Of a stretch of DNA of 64,000 nucleotides, positions 27,727 through 35,936 are shown piece by piece (within the stretch, counting starts at the first letter, position 1; each line of letters begins with the position of its first letter). The position numbers were made by a program, and so were the translations under genes. The notes under the pieces are model-generated. The model was not told the origin of the DNA, searched no databases, and saw nothing but the letters and a program-made list of their open reading frames with translations. The stretch covers positions 1 through 64,000 of the forward strand of contig NZ_NKTX01000009.1 of the NCBI RefSeq assembly GCF_003207815.1, in the 5' to 3' direction. Origin of the DNA: Komagataeibacter oboediens. GTDB taxonomy: Bacteria; Pseudomonadota; Alphaproteobacteria; Acetobacterales; Acetobacteraceae.

Positions 27727-29187
27727 ATGTCTGCACTCGCCCGCTACCGTCAGGAATGGTTCGGCAACATCACGCGTGATACCCTGGCCGGCATGGTCGG
27801 CACGTTTGCGCTGATCCCCGAAGTCATTGCATTTTCCTTTGTCGCCGGGGTCGATCCCGCGGTCGGGCTTTATGCATCCTTTGTCATAAGCGTGGTCATT
27901 GCCTTTACCGGCGGCAGGCCGGGCATGATTTCGGGCGCGGCCGGGTCCGTGGCGCTGGTGGCGGCAGCTCTGGTGCGTGGCCACGGTGTTCAGTACCTGC
28001 TGGCGGCAACCCTTCTGTGTGGACTGCTGCAGGTCATCTTCGGCCTCCTCCGCCTGCATGTGCTGATGCGCTATGTTTCCCGTCCGGTCCGGACCGGGTT
28101 TGTCAATGCGCTGGCGATCCTGATCTTTTCAGCACAGGTTCCGCACATGCTGCATGTGACATGGCATACCTACGCCATGATCGCGCTGGGGCTGGCGATC
28201 ATCTATACCCTGCCCCGTCTTTTTTCGGCCATCCCGTCGCCACTGATCTGCATCGTGATCCTGACGGTCATATCCGTGCTGTGCCCCATGCCGCTGCACA
28301 CGGTGGCGGATCTTGGCCGCCTGCCTGACAGTCTGCCGCATCTGGTCTGGCCTGATGTACCGTTCTCACTGGATACCCTGAACATCATCGCCCCCTATGC
28401 ACTGGCCATGGCCAGCGTGGGCATGCTGGAATCCATGATGACGGCGCGCGTGGTGGATGACCTGACGGAAACCCACAGCAGCAAGCGGCAGGAATGCATG
28501 GGGCTGGGGATTGCCAATATCGCGGTCGGCCTGTTTGGCGGGATTGCGGGTTGTGGCATGATCGGACAGACAGTGGGCAACCTGCGTTATGGCGGACGGG
28601 GGCGGCTGTCCACCTTTGTCGCGGGCGCTTTCCTGCTGCTGCTTATGGTGGCGCTGCGTCCGTGGGTTGCGCAGGTGCCGGTGGCTGCCCTTGTGGCCAT
28701 CATGATCATGGTTTCGGCCAGTACGTTTTCCTGGTCCTCCCTGCGCGACCTTGTCCATCATCCACGCACCACCAGCGTCATCATGCTGGCAACGGTGGCT
28801 GTCGTCGTTGGTACGCATGACCTTGCCGCCGGGGTGGCCGTGGGTGTGCTGCTGAACGGGCTGTTCTTTGCCTTTCAGGTATCCAGCATGCTGTCGGTCA
28901 CCAGCACGCTGTCCGATGACGGCACGCGACGCACCTATATCGTGAACGGACAGGTCTTCTTTGCATCATCCGACGGGTTTGCCGATGCGTTCGACCTGCA
29001 TGATACGGCCCGTCACATCACGATCGACCTGACGCATGCCCATATATGGGACATGACGGCTGCCGGCATGCTGGAGGAACTGATCGGCAAGATGGAGGCA
29101 CAGGGCAAGGACGTGCAGCTGATCGGCCTGAACGGTGCCAGCACAAAACTGCTGGCACGCCATACCCGCCTGCAGCCAGCGGAATGA
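27727..29187 (+). CDS. SulP-family anion transporter with STAS domain
   Basis: A 486-aa membrane protein: about ten hydrophobic segments up to residue 380, with ALIPEVIAFSFVAGVDPAVGLYASF (in part) typical of SulP, then a C-terminal STAS domain from about 400 (ITIDLTHAHIWDMTAAGMLEEL). Substrates in the family are sulfate, bicarbonate or dicarboxylates; it cannot be narrowed. It is 34 bases after queD, so cotranscription is possible, though functionally unrelated. Confidence 0.85.
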   Translation: MSALARYRQEWFGNITRDTLAGMVGTFALIPEVIAFSFVAGVDPAVGLYASFVISVVIAFTGGRPGMISGAAGSVALVAAALVRGHGVQYLLAATLLCGLLQVIFGLLRLHVLMRYVSRPVRTGFVNALAILIFSAQVPHMLHVTWHTYAMIALGLAIIYTLPRLFSAIPSPLICIVILTVISVLCPMPLHTVADLGRLPDSLPHLVWPDVPFSLDTLNIIAPYALAMASVGMLESMMTARVVDDLTETHSSKRQECMGLGIANIAVGLFGGIAGCGMIGQTVGNLRYGGRGRLSTFVAGAFLLLLMVALRPWVAQVPVAALVAIMIMVSASTFSWSSLRDLVHHPRTTSVIMLATVAVVVGTHDLAAGVAVGVLLNGLFFAFQVSSMLSVTSTLSDDGTRRTYIVNGQVFFASSDGFADAFDLHDTARHITIDLTHAHIWDMTAAGMLEELIGKMEAQGKDVQLIGLNGASTKLLARHTRLQPAE

Positions 29188-30168: not shown

Positions 30169-31056
30169 TTATTTTTTCTTCGTCGTTGCTGTCGCGGGTA
30201 GCGCAAAGGGATCAACAGCAGAGGTGGTACCCGCCAGTTTTGCCCATTGGGCGGCTGTCGTCTTGTCACCCGCCTGCAGCGCGCTCTGGCTGGCGCGGGC
30301 ATAAAGCTGGGCGGCGGCCTGTGCATTTCCTGCCTTGGCCGCGGCACGACCGGCAACGCCAAGGGCGCGGGCCATATCACGGTAATCCACCTGTGTCTGG
30401 CGAATGGTCGCCGCCTGCATTGCATCCTGCATTGCGGTCTGCGTGCTGCCACCGGTGACCAGCAGGTTACGGGCAGCGATTTCCTTCGCATCCGCCGTCC
30501 AGCTATCCGGGAGCTTTCCGGTGAGGTTGGCGAAATAGGCATCAACAGAAGCCAGCGTGGCCTGATCCCCGCTGTCATCGGCAATCAGCCCCCGGATCAG
30601 CTGGGCTTTCTCGACGATATCGGTGTCCTGCGCACCTGCGGCGCGTGATGCCGCTGCAGCAGCTTCGGTCTCCCGCCCCAGCCGGTGCAGCGCGCCTGCC
30701 TGCACCAGATCCAGACCGGAATCATCGCCCGTCTGGCCTCGCATCGCCAGGGCCGAACGTGTCGCGGTTACCGTGGACAGCGCATCCTGTGGCTTGCCTT
30801 CATCCAGTTGCACCGTCGCAAGGTTGTAGCCAGCATCGCCTATGGCCGTGACATCATCGCGTGCAACGGCGCGTTGGCCAGCTGCGCGGTACTGCTGTTC
30901 CGCCACGGCAAGGCGCTCAAGTCCCACGGCATCCTTCGCAGTATCCATGTCCTGCGACAGGGTGGTATCGCCCGGCTGGGTGACAGCCTGCCCCCCGCCG
31001 CATCCTGCCAGCACCAGGGCAAGGCCGAGGGTCGCGTATTCCTTCTTCATTTTCAT
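30169..31056 (-). CDS. Lipoprotein with TPR-like helical repeats, MCE operon
   Basis: A 295-aa lipoprotein: MKMKKEYATLGLALVLAGC gives a lipobox with Cys19. The remainder is Ala/Gln-rich and helical, resembling tetratricopeptide repeats (AEQQYRAAGQRA, AQAAAQLYARASQSAL). ATG 31056 overlaps the MCE gene stop (ATGA), so it is an operon member and a candidate periplasmic or outer-membrane partner of the MCE protein. It does not resemble the usual PqiC/DUF330 auxiliary lipoproteins. Confidence 0.7.
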   Translation of the reverse strand: MKMKKEYATLGLALVLAGCGGGQAVTQPGDTTLSQDMDTAKDAVGLERLAVAEQQYRAAGQRAVARDDVTAIGDAGYNLATVQLDEGKPQDALSTVTATRSALAMRGQTGDDSGLDLVQAGALHRLGRETEAAAAASRAAGAQDTDIVEKAQLIRGLIADDSGDQATLASVDAYFANLTGKLPDSWTADAKEIAARNLLVTGGSTQTAMQDAMQAATIRQTQVDYRDMARALGVAGRAAAKAGNAQAAAQLYARASQSALQAGDKTTAAQWAKLAGTTSAVDPFALPATATTKKK

Positions 31057-32006
31057 GGCTGCACCTTCTGCGCCGGAAGACGGGCATGGGCATGCTTCGC
31101 CGTCTTGTTGCCGTTGCCGCCCAGTATCCACAGGCCACGCATCTGATCGACCAGCTTCTGCAGGCTGCTGGCAGTCGTCTGTGCCTGCACCAGCAGCACT
31201 GGCAGCTGCTGGCTGGCATCCTTCAGGTTCTGGGTAATGGCCGGGGAGGCGTTGCTCAGATCACCTGTCGCCTTCTGCACGTTGGTCATGCTGGCGCTGG
31301 CCTTGTCCATCACGCCGGCAAGCTGTTTTTCAATTGGTGTCAACTGGCTGACCGTGGCGTTCAGGCTGGTGATCATCTGTTCCGCCTGGCGGATCAGGTC
31401 ATCATTGGTCATGAGCCGCCCGATGGATCCCTTGCCCGCATGCATGTCCGTAATGGTTGCGTCCAGCGTTGCCATCATGTGCTGCGCGTTATCCAGAACC
31501 GGGATGACACGATCGCGGATGTCACTGAAGGTCTGGGTAATGGTATCAGCCGGGTTCGGGGCGTTGGTGGCGCTCAGCACCGCATAGCTCCAGTCCAGCT
31601 TGTCCCCTGTCCCGCGTGAAATATCGATGTAGCTGGCCCCGGCCACGACGAACTGCTTGCGGATGATGGCCGTGCTGTCACGGCGAATATAGGGTTCGAT
31701 ATCGGGATCGATTTCGGCAATGGCGTACATGCCGCCCGCCGGGTTGATCCGCACGCGCCGCACCGTGCCGGCATGAATGCCCATCACCTGAAGATCATCA
31801 CCGACCGACAGGCCACTGACCCCGTTTTCAGGCAGGACAATCCGCAGCTTGCCCGCAGGGGTCAGCCAGTCACGCAGCACGCCAGCTTCGATCACTGCCC
31901 CAAGCAGGATGACAAGGGACACAAGGACAAGTATCCCCACCCATTCATCGGCGTAACGGACACGCACAAGCTGCCGGATTCCGTCTGACTGTTGTTTCTG
32001 GACCAT
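31053..32006 (-). CDS. MlaD/MCE-domain substrate-binding protein
   Basis: A 317-aa protein with one N-terminal membrane anchor (about 20-45, VGILVLVSLVILLGAVIEAGV) and an MCE domain at about 50-135: LRIVLPENGVSGLSVGDDLQVMG, GTVRRVRI, AEIDPD and VVAGASYIDIS. After it comes a long helical region that could form a barrel or coiled coil in the periplasm. MCE proteins form hexameric rings that shuttle lipids between membranes. Its start overlaps the stop of the ATPase-like gene by one base (TAATG). Confidence 0.85.
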   Translation of the reverse strand: MVQKQQSDGIRQLVRVRYADEWVGILVLVSLVILLGAVIEAGVLRDWLTPAGKLRIVLPENGVSGLSVGDDLQVMGIHAGTVRRVRINPAGGMYAIAEIDPDIEPYIRRDSTAIIRKQFVVAGASYIDISRGTGDKLDWSYAVLSATNAPNPADTITQTFSDIRDRVIPVLDNAQHMMATLDATITDMHAGKGSIGRLMTNDDLIRQAEQMITSLNATVSQLTPIEKQLAGVMDKASASMTNVQKATGDLSNASPAITQNLKDASQQLPVLLVQAQTTASSLQKLVDQMRGLWILGGNGNKTAKHAHARLPAQKVQP

Positions 32007-32701
32007 TACACCACCCGCATGGGAAAAAGACCTTCATCAAGAAGGCGCATGTGGATATTCACCGCCTTGCGATATTCATGCCACGCTGCTGCTGACCGCA
32101 CGAACCATAACACGCCACAGCCGCGATCCCGCGCCGCGGTCATCATTTCAAGAAACGGCAGGATGTTCTCCTCTGGCAGCGTGTCGGAAATATCCTCCAG
32201 CACCAGCAGGTCCGGCCGCCCCACAAAGGCCCGCACACATGCCGCCCGTGCCAGGTCAGCCCCCGACAGCCGGTCGGGCGTCGATGTGGGCAGACCGGGA
32301 AAACCAAACCGGTGCCCCAGTTCCGTGGCGGACAGGACCACATGATCAAACGGGTCCGTTGTATGGTACAGATGCGGCAGCATGATATTGAGATGCGTGC
32401 CAAACAGGTTGAGCCAGCTGCTGCTGCGCGAAATACGGCCGATACGCCCACGCAGCGCGTTCAGCTGCCGGTCGCGCAGTGTGCTCCAGTCCAGTCCCAT
32501 GAACTTGATGCTGCCCTGCGTCAGCGAAATCATACCCGAACACAGGTCCGCGAACATGGCGGCGCGTTCGAAATCACGGCAGTCGATCACCGCGCACTCA
32601 CCGGGCATGATACGCAGGTTATAGGGCGCGGGCATCAGCCCGCTTTCCTCGAATGACGGGACGGCATCACGCAGTTCCAGCAGGGGAGCGTTGGCTGTCA
32701 T
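32006..32701 (-). CDS. MlaF-like ABC ATPase subunit with degenerate nucleotide-binding motifs
   Basis: A 231-aa protein in the position of MlaF between permease and MCE genes. Its fold order fits an ABC ATPase, but the motifs are lost. Where Walker A should stand (about 39-47) the sequence is IDCRDFERA, with no Gly-rich loop and no GKS/T. The Q-loop region reads ISRSSSW; the signature is LSGAD (145-149); Walker B is LLVLED, with Asp replaced by Glu; the H-loop region is WFVRSA, without His. The frame is intact and coupled to its neighbours, so it is not a decaying pseudogene. It may be a structural, non-hydrolysing subunit. Confidence 0.75.
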   Translation of the reverse strand: MTANAPLLELRDAVPSFEESGLMPAPYNLRIMPGECAVIDCRDFERAAMFADLCSGMISLTQGSIKFMGLDWSTLRDRQLNALRGRIGRISRSSSWLNLFGTHLNIMLPHLYHTTDPFDHVVLSATELGHRFGFPGLPTSTPDRLSGADLARAACVRAFVGRPDLLVLEDISDTLPEENILPFLEMMTAARDRGCGVLWFVRSAAAWHEYRKAVNIHMRLLDEGLFPMRVV

Positions 32702-32703
32702 GG

Positions 32704-33594
32704 TCAGAAATCCAGCATGAAGAGGACGTTGACCACCAGCACCAGCATGATCCCGCGCGCGAACCCGCGTGGCATGATGGTGGCCATCGTATCATTACTG
32801 CTGACGGTCAGCCCCGAAATGCAGGCCCCCAGCCCGACGAAGAAGCCGACCAGCACGAATTTAAGCGGAATGATCAGGTAATCCCACGTGGTCATCGCCG
32901 CAAGGACATTGAAAAAGAACGTCCAGACCGATGTCGTAATCGCCCCCGTGGAATGCGCGATGACAAACCCCATCAACAGCGACACGACCGCAAAGATCAT
33001 GCCCAGCGTGAAGCCACCAAGCGTGAAGGCGAACGTACGCGGCATGACCAGCGCCAGGAACGGGTCGATACCACGCGCCTGCAGGGCACGCACCTCCCCG
33101 CCCAGCACCATCATGCCGATTTCCGTCAGGGACAGCATGCCGCTGCGCCCCATCAGGATGATACCGACAAGGATGGGCGAGATTTCACGCACCAGCACAG
33201 ATACGAGGATGGACCCCGTCATCTGCGCCATGCCCGCGAACCCCAGCCAGTACGCGGCCTGTGACACCACCATGAGGCCCGTCAGCGTCGCGGTGACCAC
33301 GATGCTCAGGAACCCACCACTGACAACCTGCCTCAGTGATGCGCGGAATTCATAGATAACCGGCCTGCGCCATGAATTGGGCCGCAGGCTTTCGCGGATC
33401 GTGCCCCATCCCGCCCCGATCACCAGCAGGGTGAACCGGATCTGGTGGCGCGTCAGGCGCCCGATGGCGGCAAGCCAAGGCGCGAAACGGCGCAACAGAT
33501 GGACAAAGCGACCGGCATCGTCCGGCTGCGGACCGGAAAACGGGTTCGTCTGCGGTGCCGTGCGGTCAGGGGCTGGGGGTGACGTATCGGTCAT
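32704..33594 (-). CDS. MlaE-family permease
   Basis: A 296-aa integral membrane protein with about five to six hydrophobic helices. The MlaE coupling segment is recognisable: MGRSGMLSLTEIGMM, then EVRALQARGIDPFLALVMPR. The N-terminal 60 residues are a soluble Pro-rich extension. The stop is two bases before the ATPase-like gene, and the start overlaps the receptor gene stop (ATGA). Confidence 0.87.
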   Translation of the reverse strand: MTDTSPPAPDRTAPQTNPFSGPQPDDAGRFVHLLRRFAPWLAAIGRLTRHQIRFTLLVIGAGWGTIRESLRPNSWRRPVIYEFRASLRQVVSGGFLSIVVTATLTGLMVVSQAAYWLGFAGMAQMTGSILVSVLVREISPILVGIILMGRSGMLSLTEIGMMVLGGEVRALQARGIDPFLALVMPRTFAFTLGGFTLGMIFAVVSLLMGFVIAHSTGAITTSVWTFFFNVLAAMTTWDYLIIPLKFVLVGFFVGLGACISGLTVSSNDTMATIMPRGFARGIMLVLVVNVLFMLDF

Positions 33595-35936
33595 CGCCGT
33601 CCGGCCAGCACATAGGTCCGTGTCAGCCCCATGCCGGGAATGAAGAACCGGCCGCGTTCACGGAACAGGAAATACTGACGCAGGCGCTGATAGACATTTT
33701 CAGACACCTGGATCGTGCCGACATCCGGCGCGCCCTGCGCCATCATCTCGGCCATGCCCATCGCATCGCCCCACAGGTTGAACGCCTGCGGGTTCTTGCC
33801 CAGCATGCCGCCGAATACCGGTCCCACGTCGATGCCGATGCGGAAGACCGGGTCAAGGTCGGCCTGCGACAGCATGGCCAGCACGTTTTCACGCATCATG
33901 AGCGCGGCATTCGCCATACGGAACACCGCCCCCTTGTCCGGCGTGCGCGAACAGCCCGCGACACAGACAACCCGGTGCCCCAGCATGCGGATGGAATACA
34001 GCCCGCACTGGTGGGCGATATCCTGCAGCGTGCCGGCCATCGTATCGATCAGCTTGATATTGGCAGCCGGATCATTCTGGGCCGTCATGATCATGTCGGA
34101 CAGGCTGATGACCATGATGGTGACGGCAGGATAGAACCCGTCCAGCTTGGTCAGGTCCACACTGCCGGCCTGCCCGTTAATGGACAGCGCACCGGGCGAC
34201 AGCAGGAAGCCCTGACTGGGGTCCTGGGGCTCTTCCTCGCCTGCGGCGGGTTCCGATTCCAGTTCCTCACGCGCGGCGGCGACCGCCGTATAATGCTGTG
34301 CGGAGAAACGGGCCGCCGCGACACCTGCGATCATGTCCACGAAGTGGGAGACCATTTCCGCACGGGGGGCATCTTCCAGCGTAATGACACCTACGGGACC
34401 GCTACTGCCCTGGATCGGGCTGCAGAACAGCGAACTGCTGCCAAAGGCCCGCATGTAAACGCGGTAGAAGGCTGTCGTTCGGTCATCGGTCGATGCATTG
34501 GTCGCGACCAGCGCATCACCATGGGAAACGGCATCAAAGAACTTTTTCAGATCCGTGGTCGCCATTTCGAAGCCACCGGAATGCACGTCCTGCTGCCTGT
34601 CATAGGAATCGATGCACATGAGCGTATGCCCATCGTGCAGGATACGCCATATGGCGGCGCGGCGTGCATGGGACTGATCGGCCAGCGTCTCGGTCAGGAC
34701 AAGGGCGTTGTCCTCCGGATTGAACAGGTCGGGATAGGCCGCGACCGACTGCAGGGCGTGGCTTTCGTAGTTGGCGACGGCCTCGCTCTGGCGGATCCTG
34801 TTGCGCAGACGGTCACTGCGCCGCGCCTGCAGGAACAGAAGCAGCCCGAAACCCAGCGCCATGATCACCACCAGGACAAAGAACAGCAGGTTTTGCCGCC
34901 CGTCCGCCATGGCGAAGCGCGAAAAATCGTCCTCGGGTGCTACCAGCAGCAGAACCCAGCTATCCTTGCCAACCGGCAGGTTGGCGGTAATGGTGACATA
35001 CTGCCGACCCTTTACCCTGACCGTGCGGGCCCCATATCCATGGACGCGATATTCATCGAACGCCTTGGTCATGACCGGAAATTTTTCCGGATCCAGCGTC
35101 ATCTTGGACGGATCGCCATGCGCCTTGGTCTGCGTTTCCTGCATGCCGTGGCCAGCGACGACATGCCCGTCCTGATCAAGCAGGATCGCGGTACCGCTTT
35201 CACCAATTTTCAGTGAATTGAGAAAACTGTTGAGATGATTAAGGGACATGTTGATGGCATAGACATACGTCTTGTCATTACTGCCCTTGTACGGAACCGC
35301 AGCCGTGATGGTGACCTGCTTGGTCACCTCCACCATATAGGGACGGGTCCAGAATTCCTGCCCTGCCTTGACCGTATCGGCAAACCAGCCATGCCCGCGG
35401 GGATCGTACGTCCCTGCAGGCGTCTGCCACTGTTTCAGCAGCTTGCCGTTGTCATCACGCAGTTCATGGGTGAAAATGGCCTGGGGCGTGCCGACGCCAT
35501 GCAGGGTGGTCAGCGCGGTCTCGCCCTGCTTTTCCCCATGTTCCAGCGTGCTGAAATTGCCGTCGCTGTCGGCAATGTAGAAGGACTGGATCTGCAGAAC
35601 ATTCCGCATCATGGTGCTGCTGTAGCCGGTGAAGATCTTCTGCTCCACCTCCGGCGCGCCATGTTCAAGCATGTCGCGCGCCACGATCGCCCCGGCAGAG
35701 GCAGGCATAAGAAAGGAACTGACTTCCTTTGCGACGTAATCCTGCTGGCTGACCAGCAGGTCATGCGTCAGGGTCAATGCGCCAGTGCGAACAGTCCGGT
35801 AGGAATGCCACCCCACACCAGCAATGACGGCAATGACCGAAACCACACCGGCCACCGGAATGCCGATATGAAACAGGAAGCGTCTGAACTGGTCGGAAGG
35901 GGCAATCGTGGGATCGACAATCTCGTCCGTGGCCAA
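33591..35936 (-). CDS. Cache-GAF receptor with degenerate class III cyclase domain
   Basis: A 781-aa membrane receptor. TM1 is at 21-45; a large periplasmic dCache-type sensor follows at about 50-340 (SFYIADSDGNFST, DPRGHGWFADTVKAGQEFWTRPY); TM2 is at about 348-370; a GAF-like domain spans about 395-550; and an adenylate/guanylate cyclase homology domain occupies about 600-775. In the last, the first metal Asp is Ser611, the KxxGD motif reads RMLGH (Arg650, His654), the Asn is Gly727 and the transition-state Arg is Met731; only LWGD is retained. Cyclase activity is therefore unlikely. The start is TTG, with AGGAAGAG upstream. It is the first gene of the MCE operon. Confidence 0.78.
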   Translation of the reverse strand: MATDEIVDPTIAPSDQFRRFLFHIGIPVAGVVSVIAVIAGVGWHSYRTVRTGALTLTHDLLVSQQDYVAKEVSSFLMPASAGAIVARDMLEHGAPEVEQKIFTGYSSTMMRNVLQIQSFYIADSDGNFSTLEHGEKQGETALTTLHGVGTPQAIFTHELRDDNGKLLKQWQTPAGTYDPRGHGWFADTVKAGQEFWTRPYMVEVTKQVTITAAVPYKGSNDKTYVYAINMSLNHLNSFLNSLKIGESGTAILLDQDGHVVAGHGMQETQTKAHGDPSKMTLDPEKFPVMTKAFDEYRVHGYGARTVRVKGRQYVTITANLPVGKDSWVLLLVAPEDDFSRFAMADGRQNLLFFVLVVIMALGFGLLLFLQARRSDRLRNRIRQSEAVANYESHALQSVAAYPDLFNPEDNALVLTETLADQSHARRAAIWRILHDGHTLMCIDSYDRQQDVHSGGFEMATTDLKKFFDAVSHGDALVATNASTDDRTTAFYRVYMRAFGSSSLFCSPIQGSSGPVGVITLEDAPRAEMVSHFVDMIAGVAAARFSAQHYTAVAAAREELESEPAAGEEEPQDPSQGFLLSPGALSINGQAGSVDLTKLDGFYPAVTIMVISLSDMIMTAQNDPAANIKLIDTMAGTLQDIAHQCGLYSIRMLGHRVVCVAGCSRTPDKGAVFRMANAALMMRENVLAMLSQADLDPVFRIGIDVGPVFGGMLGKNPQAFNLWGDAMGMAEMMAQGAPDVGTIQVSENVYQRLRQYFLFRERGRFFIPGMGLTRTYVLAGRR

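Follow-up and report, generated by a model that had tools for sequence, protein, structure and literature searches.

The window analyzed here, a whole stretch of DNA of 64,000 nucleotides, carries an operon of five minus-strand open reading frames (ORFs; 35936-30169) encoding a receptor, an MlaE permease, an ABC nucleotide-binding domain (NBD), an MCE protein, and a TPR-type lipoprotein. Judged from the sequence, the operon lacks tested defining features of each of the Mla, Mpc, Pqi, Let, and Mce1-4 systems. The sequence-only reading had proposed a new class of regulated MCE lipid-transport system. A separate, conserved type of operon with a predicted pseudo-ATPase and a predicted pseudo-cyclase was borne out, while regulation and lipid transport are functions that we infer. 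The features, all on the minus strand, are as follows.

33591..35936, minus strand: membrane receptor of 781 aa, with a dCache_1 sensor, a GAF domain, and a domain resembling class III cyclases in which the usual catalytic residues are lacking
35079..35456, minus strand: dCache_1 sensor stretch, residues 161-286 (Pfam; PctA is the closest solved relative)
34317..34700, minus strand: GAF domain, residues 413-540 (Pfam)
33603..34130, minus strand: predicted pseudo-cyclase domain, residues 603-778 (Pfam and residue comparison)
32704..33594, minus strand: MlaE-family permease of 296 aa (Pfam MlaE; RE pair kept)
32006..32701, minus strand: predicted pseudo-ATPase, an ABC NBD fold without Walker A, the Walker B Asp, or the switch His
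32558..32581, minus strand: Walker A-aligned codons, which read CRDFERAA versus GxxxxGKS (NBD alignment)
31053..32006, minus strand: MCE (MlaD-domain) protein of 317 aa with one MCE domain, residues 62-132
30169..31056, minus strand: lipoprotein with the lipobox LAGC and Cys19; all-helical TPR-type model

The five genes were as tightly joined as had been claimed. The receptor and MlaE genes overlap by 4 bases (33591-33594), a 2-base gap (32702-32703) separates the MlaE and NBD genes, and overlaps of 1 base (32006) and 4 bases (31053-31056) follow at the NBD-MCE and MCE-lipoprotein junctions. The receptor gene starts with TTG, with aggaag upstream, and the lipoprotein gene starts with ATG; in the ORF listing, an alternative longer GTG form of the latter begins at 31131. 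Promoter- and terminator-like sites at the operon were not clearly above those in shuffled sequences.

To the program Pfam, the NBD was barely recognizable (ABC_tran, E value of 0.008, 17.3 bits, under the cutoff of 25). We used an alignment of 91 distinct NBDs, including that of the window, together with two motif-bearing NBDs of the same genome; one of the 91, from L177, is a wrong-frame fragment. The Walker A motif GxxxxGK[ST] was found in 0 of the 91, with the same reservation about L177. The P-loop Lys was likewise kept in none, and Ala stood at its position in 67/91. The Walker B Asp was retained in a single NBD (Glu instead in 87/91), and the switch His was retained in two. In the signature, L was kept in 75/91 and S in 67/91 NBDs, and the fifth position was Asp in 88/91. 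Within the same alignment, the two reference NBDs retained their ATPase motifs. The family also has conserved blocks of its own, namely, GECALIECRD, FADLCSG, ALRGRIGR, and FGLPGLP. An AlphaFold2 model of the NBD showed an ABC fold; its best pLDDT was 76, the five models spanned 76 to 42 with two near 42, and residues 94-112 and 135-140 were the weak parts. When this model was searched with Foldseek, ABC NBDs were recovered with E values of about 1e-12 and query-normalized TM scores of 0.63-0.77 among the best 50 matches, and MlaF, FtsE, LolD, MetN, and BceA were among the matches listed. The NCBIfam MlaF model gave only 16.9 bits against a cutoff of 441, and the DevA, LolD, and FtsE models ranked ahead of it.

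The receptor was recognized by Pfam as carrying dCache_1 (5e-13), GAF (3e-5), and Guanylate_cyc (4e-21) domains. Its cyclase-like domain is homologous to class III nucleotidyl cyclases, the best solved match being a catalytic domain of the mycobacterial type. For comparison, 84 distinct receptors were obtained from 90 sequences, ORFs shorter than about 700 aa being excluded; receptors of loci from two other families (L111, L112, and L171-L176) count among the 84. Five cyclase catalytic residues, with roles in binding metal or substrate or in the transition state, were scored: 40 receptors keep none of them, 40 keep one, and 4 keep two. The class III substrate Asp was replaced by Asn in 82/84. 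The first metal Asp was excluded from the scoring because the alignments disagree, a gapped alignment giving Asp in 64/84 and the HMMER alignment giving Ser in the window protein. Thus, in contrast to class III cyclases, catalytic residues are largely gone in all 84 receptors, and the receptor is encoded together with a transporter. The statement of the sequence-only reading that both nucleotide-binding domains look dead agrees with these counts, since Walker A occurs in 0/91 NBDs and at most two of the five cyclase residues occur in any of the 84 receptors.

According to PMC10104139, dCache_1AA amino-acid sensors are marked by a motif that in PctA includes Y121, W128, Y129, Y144, and D173. 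Arg126 also belongs to the motif, which then reads Y121/R126/W128/Y129/Y144/D173. The window receptor has Y, H, W, F, Y, and N at these positions, with Arg126 replaced by His, Tyr129 by Phe, and Asp173 by Asn, so it does not carry the motif. With aromatics treated as interchangeable, the five positions from R126 on were all kept in 22/84 receptors, of which L157 is the sole named locus from L115-L158; at position 173, 61 of the 84 carry Asn and 23 carry Asp. Given that PctA is the closest solved relative, that 22 receptors keep these five positions, and that substitutions are found elsewhere, the sensor probably derives from an amino-acid sensor whose ligand pocket has since been altered.

The permease matched Pfam PF02405 (MlaE) at 2e-34, above the cutoff, and scored under the cutoffs of both NCBIfam MlaE models. 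Its residues 87-261 can be aligned with solved permeases of the MlaE type, and it retains the conserved RE pair, which is equated in this analysis with Arg97-Glu98 of Escherichia coli. The coupling-helix stretch is probably kept, and the NBD has probably retained its dock on MlaE. The MCE protein contains a single MCE domain (Pfam MlaD, 1e-10) and reached 35.4 bits with the MlaD equivalog TIGR04430, whose cutoff is 135. About 170 residues lie C-terminal of this domain, and their length and weak coiled-coil-type matches suggest a helical stalk. The lipoprotein, presumably located at the outer membrane, gave a TPR_16 match below the cutoff (0.002), and its model is a 13-helix solenoid with a pLDDT of 88. 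The best structural matches of this model are TPR proteins (best E value of 5e-5, TM scores mostly 0.3-0.6), and no PqiC entry occurs among the best 50. A type III chaperone model also hit the lipoprotein, at 23.5 bits with a cutoff of 70; this identity was rejected, and the match was taken as a TPR signal.

The distribution of the operon was examined at several levels. A tblastn search with the NBD matched 150/150 genomes of the order at an E value of ≤0.001 because any ABC NBD is picked up, and strong matches were separated from generic ones by score. A profile, A1, was then built from 32 NBDs and used with E values up to 1e-26 in the family. It matched 137/397 Acetobacteraceae genomes in 38/102 genera, the 137 including a decayed copy (G021) and one split into two pieces (G737). 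The matches included 14 genomes of the genus to which the window belongs, and none of 20 listed nonmatching genomes (there were 240 further) belonged to that genus. A class-wide search covered 385 genomes, of which 5 are from the same family, leaving 380 other Alphaproteobacteria. Some ABC match at 1e-10 was given by 368/385 genomes, and more than 240 bits was reached in only 2 of the 380 (G500 and G185), the next best score being 82. In the orders of these two genomes, 3/43 and 5/17 genomes matched, respectively, with G500 and G185 included. A scan of named genomes, limited by two peptide patterns, yielded 50 loci, comprising 44 true relatives and six weak generic matches. The relatives come from Komagataeibacter, Novacetimonas, Gluconacetobacter, Acetobacter, Acidomonas, Brytella, and an uncultured Rhodopila, and the NBD of Komagataeibacter intermedius TF2 (L115) is identical to that of the window over 231 residues. 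L075, L076, L077, and L114 were rejected as kin, being weak ABC matches with no MlaE or MCE gene of this kind adjoining. The loci from two other families (L111, L112, and L171-L176) also lack the NBD ATPase motifs; therefore, the catalytic losses either predate the Acetobacteraceae or moved between families.

Gene order was compared in 98 strong-NBD loci drawn from two collections, some genomes being present in both, so that these are not 98 independent genomes. All five genes were found in the same order and on the same strand in 86/98 loci, a grouping beyond chance. The 4-base receptor-permease overlap was present in 70 of the 86 complete loci, the 1-base NBD-MCE overlap in 60, and the 4-base MCE-lipoprotein overlap in 62. 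The window's flanking genes were sought in 35 loci; aroE-coaE-dnaQ was found upstream in three and SulP downstream in four. Thus, the five genes remain together though their neighborhood changes. Among the remaining loci, the receptor is absent from five with readable upstream DNA, all in one genus (g5; L071 and L179-L182), and the contig ends at a sixth locus of that genus (L190). A full-length receptor was found in 0/6 genomes of this genus. ORFs of 377 and 394 aa upstream of MlaE (L071 and L181) were rejected as a replacement receptor, having no Pfam match and appearing antisense-like. Receptor gating would therefore not be universal. The MCE and lipoprotein profiles gave no match at L157 and L183, L074 is decayed, L116 lies on a short contig, and the genes of L177 and L184 are out of order as judged through a script-chosen frame.

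Next, selection was estimated as dN/dS by a simple counting method in 55 pairs from 11 Komagataeibacter loci. The medians were 0.117 for the NBD, 0.113 for MlaE, 0.078 for the MCE protein, 0.130 for the pseudo-cyclase, and 0.165 for the lipoprotein. With a value of about 0.12, like that of the permease, the NBD is best described as a conserved predicted pseudo-ATPase, preserved rather than decaying. That the operon as a whole is in decay is hardly credible: one decayed copy (L074, in G021) and truncated frames in two draft genomes (L127 and L138) speak for it, but median dN/dS values of 0.08-0.17 in all five genes and the presence in 38 genera speak against it.

We compared the operon with known systems. 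It shares the MlaE and MCE families with Mla; however, Mla has MlaB, MlaC, and a live MlaF, and its MlaD has 183 aa in the sections of PMC12436622 consulted, versus 317 aa for the MCE protein here. As the sequence-only reading had said, MlaB (STAS) and MlaC are missing: according to Pfam, neither domain occurs in any of the five proteins, and MlaC is encoded only elsewhere in the genome. This absence had also been used to argue for novelty, a point that did not survive by itself. A phylogenomic study makes the case that an MlaEFD unit whose MlaD is long represents the common form in diderms (PMC10665443), and MlaC was not detectable for the Mpc (Mla-Pqi chimeric) system of Brucella (PMC12436622). 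The operon is distinct in other ways. Mpc of Brucella and a similar set of the host genome (C256) share with it an MlaE permease, an NBD, a long single-MCE protein, a terminal lipoprotein, and the lack of MlaC in the operon. Mpc has an N-terminal STAS domain on its permease, an MlaF-homologous ATPase, and a PqiC-like lipoprotein (sections of PMC12436622), whereas the operon gives no STAS or ABC_trans_aux match, has a dead NBD and an all-helical lipoprotein of the TPR type, and begins with a receptor gene. In Veillonella and other diderms, a three-part MlaEFD likewise has no MlaA, MlaB, or MlaC in the unit and has an elongated MCE protein. It would differ in an MlaF presumed to be an ordinary ATPase and, in Veillonella, in an MlaD that ends in a beta-barrel; the excerpts describing it mention no receptor gene. 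Pqi and Let, like the operon, are MCE transport systems without an ATPase, but their membrane proteins are of the PqiA/LetA type and their MCE domains are several, where the operon encodes an MlaE permease and a single MCE domain. Actinobacterial Mce1-4 operons have two YrbE permeases and six MCE genes, in contrast to the single permease and single MCE gene here. The earlier statement that the set does not match Mla, Pqi, Let, or Mce1-4 was thus confirmed for tested defining features of each.

No description of a cyclase/receptor-MlaE-MCE operon was found in the open-access PMC literature, by title and start of abstract, among the matches listed; the 1083-genome Mla survey (PMC10665443) may still list the operon in its tables. 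A defense system was considered and rejected, since PADLOC gave only weak part-matches (ZorA and the Pycsar cyclase PycC).

The host, a Komagataeibacter of the family Acetobacteraceae, has a genome of 3.78 Mb. Three MlaE permeases only were found in it. On contig C223, an MlaE gene and a motif-bearing NBD gene lie beside a gene that we take to be RadA-like. Contig C256 has the Mpc layout: it encodes an MlaE of 400 aa, which matches STAS_2 weakly and under the cutoff, together with an NBD that bears the motifs, an MCE protein, and a lipoprotein with ABC_trans_aux. The two MlaC homologues of the genome are on C212 and C221 only. An MlaD above the cutoff is on C22 and an MlaD-like protein below it on C33, a three-MCE protein is on C209, and a further single-MCE protein is on C212. 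Therefore, the operon of the window is an extra system and not the sole Mla-type set of the cell.

These loci bear on how a permease with a dead NBD might work. It could borrow a live ATPase from another locus, as MceG serves mycobacterial Mce1 and Mce4 (PMC9947336); within a mixed dimer, the pseudo-NBD would then be the regulatory or asymmetric partner. The genome does encode two NBDs of the MlaF type whose motifs are intact, but both of these best MlaF-like NBDs adjoin an MlaE of their own (C256 and C223). With no more than three MlaE permeases found, no orphan MlaF is apparent; as the operon also has its own conserved NBD, we regard borrowing as fairly unlikely. An ordinary pump of the Mla or Mpc type, whose ATPase works through a nonstandard nucleotide site, would agree with the Mpc-like order of permease, NBD, MCE protein, and lipoprotein (parts of PMC12436622) and with the signature L and S kept in 75 and 67 of the 91 NBDs. 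It is highly improbable against a P-loop Lys in none, a Walker B Asp in one, and a switch His in two.

The operon could also be a signaling module and no transporter, in which the MCE protein and the permease sense envelope lipids and the receptor relays the signal with its pseudoenzyme domains, in the manner in which BceAB- or FtsEX-like ABC proteins control their partners. Two dead enzymes and a sensor within one operon would suit such a role, as would FtsE and BceA among the Foldseek neighbors of the NBD, though these are expected of most ABC NBDs. However, Pfam recognized no output domain, kinase, or regulator in the five proteins, and genus g5 keeps the permease, NBD, MCE protein, and lipoprotein without the receptor, a sign that the core works independently. 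We consider the signaling reading quite unlikely.

We tentatively favor, at a little short of an even chance, a dedicated five-gene envelope system that would be a lipid conduit independent of ATP and gated by the receptor. In it, an MlaE dimer, together with an MCE hexamer whose C-terminal stalk is long, would make up the route that lipid takes out of the inner membrane and towards the TPR lipoprotein. The pseudo-NBD, keeping its ABC fold, would dock on MlaE and serve without ATP binding or hydrolysis. Since the NBD is without the known motifs for either, the movement of lipid would be passive and follow its gradient. The review PMC10212509 reports that in the Mla system of E. coli MlaD-to-MlaC lipid transfer occurs without ATP, that ATP hydrolysis was found to prevent this outward leak, and that MlaE, when free of ATP, opens towards MlaD; Mla transport overall is held to be mainly retrograde and ATP dependent. 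With a dead NBD, MlaE would stay in its ATP-free form, which faces the MCE ring in an open state. From this open state and the ATP-less transfer, the net direction would likely be outward or two-way, and not that of a retrograde pump. Gating of the permease would fall to the dCache receptor, which is usually translationally coupled to MlaE and whose pseudo-cyclase part would contact the pseudo-NBD. By analogy with MlaB, which is required for MlaF to stay on MlaE (parts of PMC7367683), the receptor may dock on the NBD in a similar role. A more specific form of the conduit is possible but doubtful: a natural "ATPase-off" Mla machine, ligand gated and ATP independent, would carry phospholipid outward across the envelope under a periplasmic sensor that opens or closes it, with the cyclase as a mechanical lever, the ATPase as a docking or gating subunit, and an amino-acid-type dCache whose pocket has changed in acetic acid bacteria.

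For Mla it is disputed whether MCE machines of the MlaE type can move lipid in the absence of ATP, and which way they move it (PMC10212509). A family in which the ATPase motifs were removed and the subunit was kept is a natural experiment bearing on this dispute. If the proposed conduit is true, acetic acid bacteria, which are used for cellulose and vinegar, would have a rare dedicated receptor wired to a lipid transporter, with two linked pseudoenzymes.

The genes for the permease MlaE, the pseudo-ATPase (NBD), the MCE protein and the lipoprotein were retained without the receptor gene in genus g5 (loci L071, L179, L180, L181 and L182), and a full-length receptor match was found in 0 of 6 genomes of this genus. 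Receptor, MlaE and NBD were present at L157 and L183, where they were followed by an ORF of 450 to 470 aa that had no Pfam match; neither locus gave a match to the MCE or lipoprotein profiles. At L074 (genome G021), the operon was in decay, with the frames of receptor, permease and MCE genes broken.

The operon is adjoined by the following gene, a neighbor found in 4 of the 35 loci searched (L044 to L047):

27727-29187, STAS-containing SulP transporter

The genome of the window operon also carries an Mpc-like set (L043 on contig C256 of G000):

C256, MlaE, with a weak STAS_2 match at its N-terminal part
C256, MlaF-like NBD, motifs intact
C256, MCE protein
C256, ABC_trans_aux lipoprotein

When solved relatives of the operon's MCE protein were searched for by sequence, the only one found was chain I of PDB 13hr (312 aa), titled "Mce/MlaD domain-containing protein."
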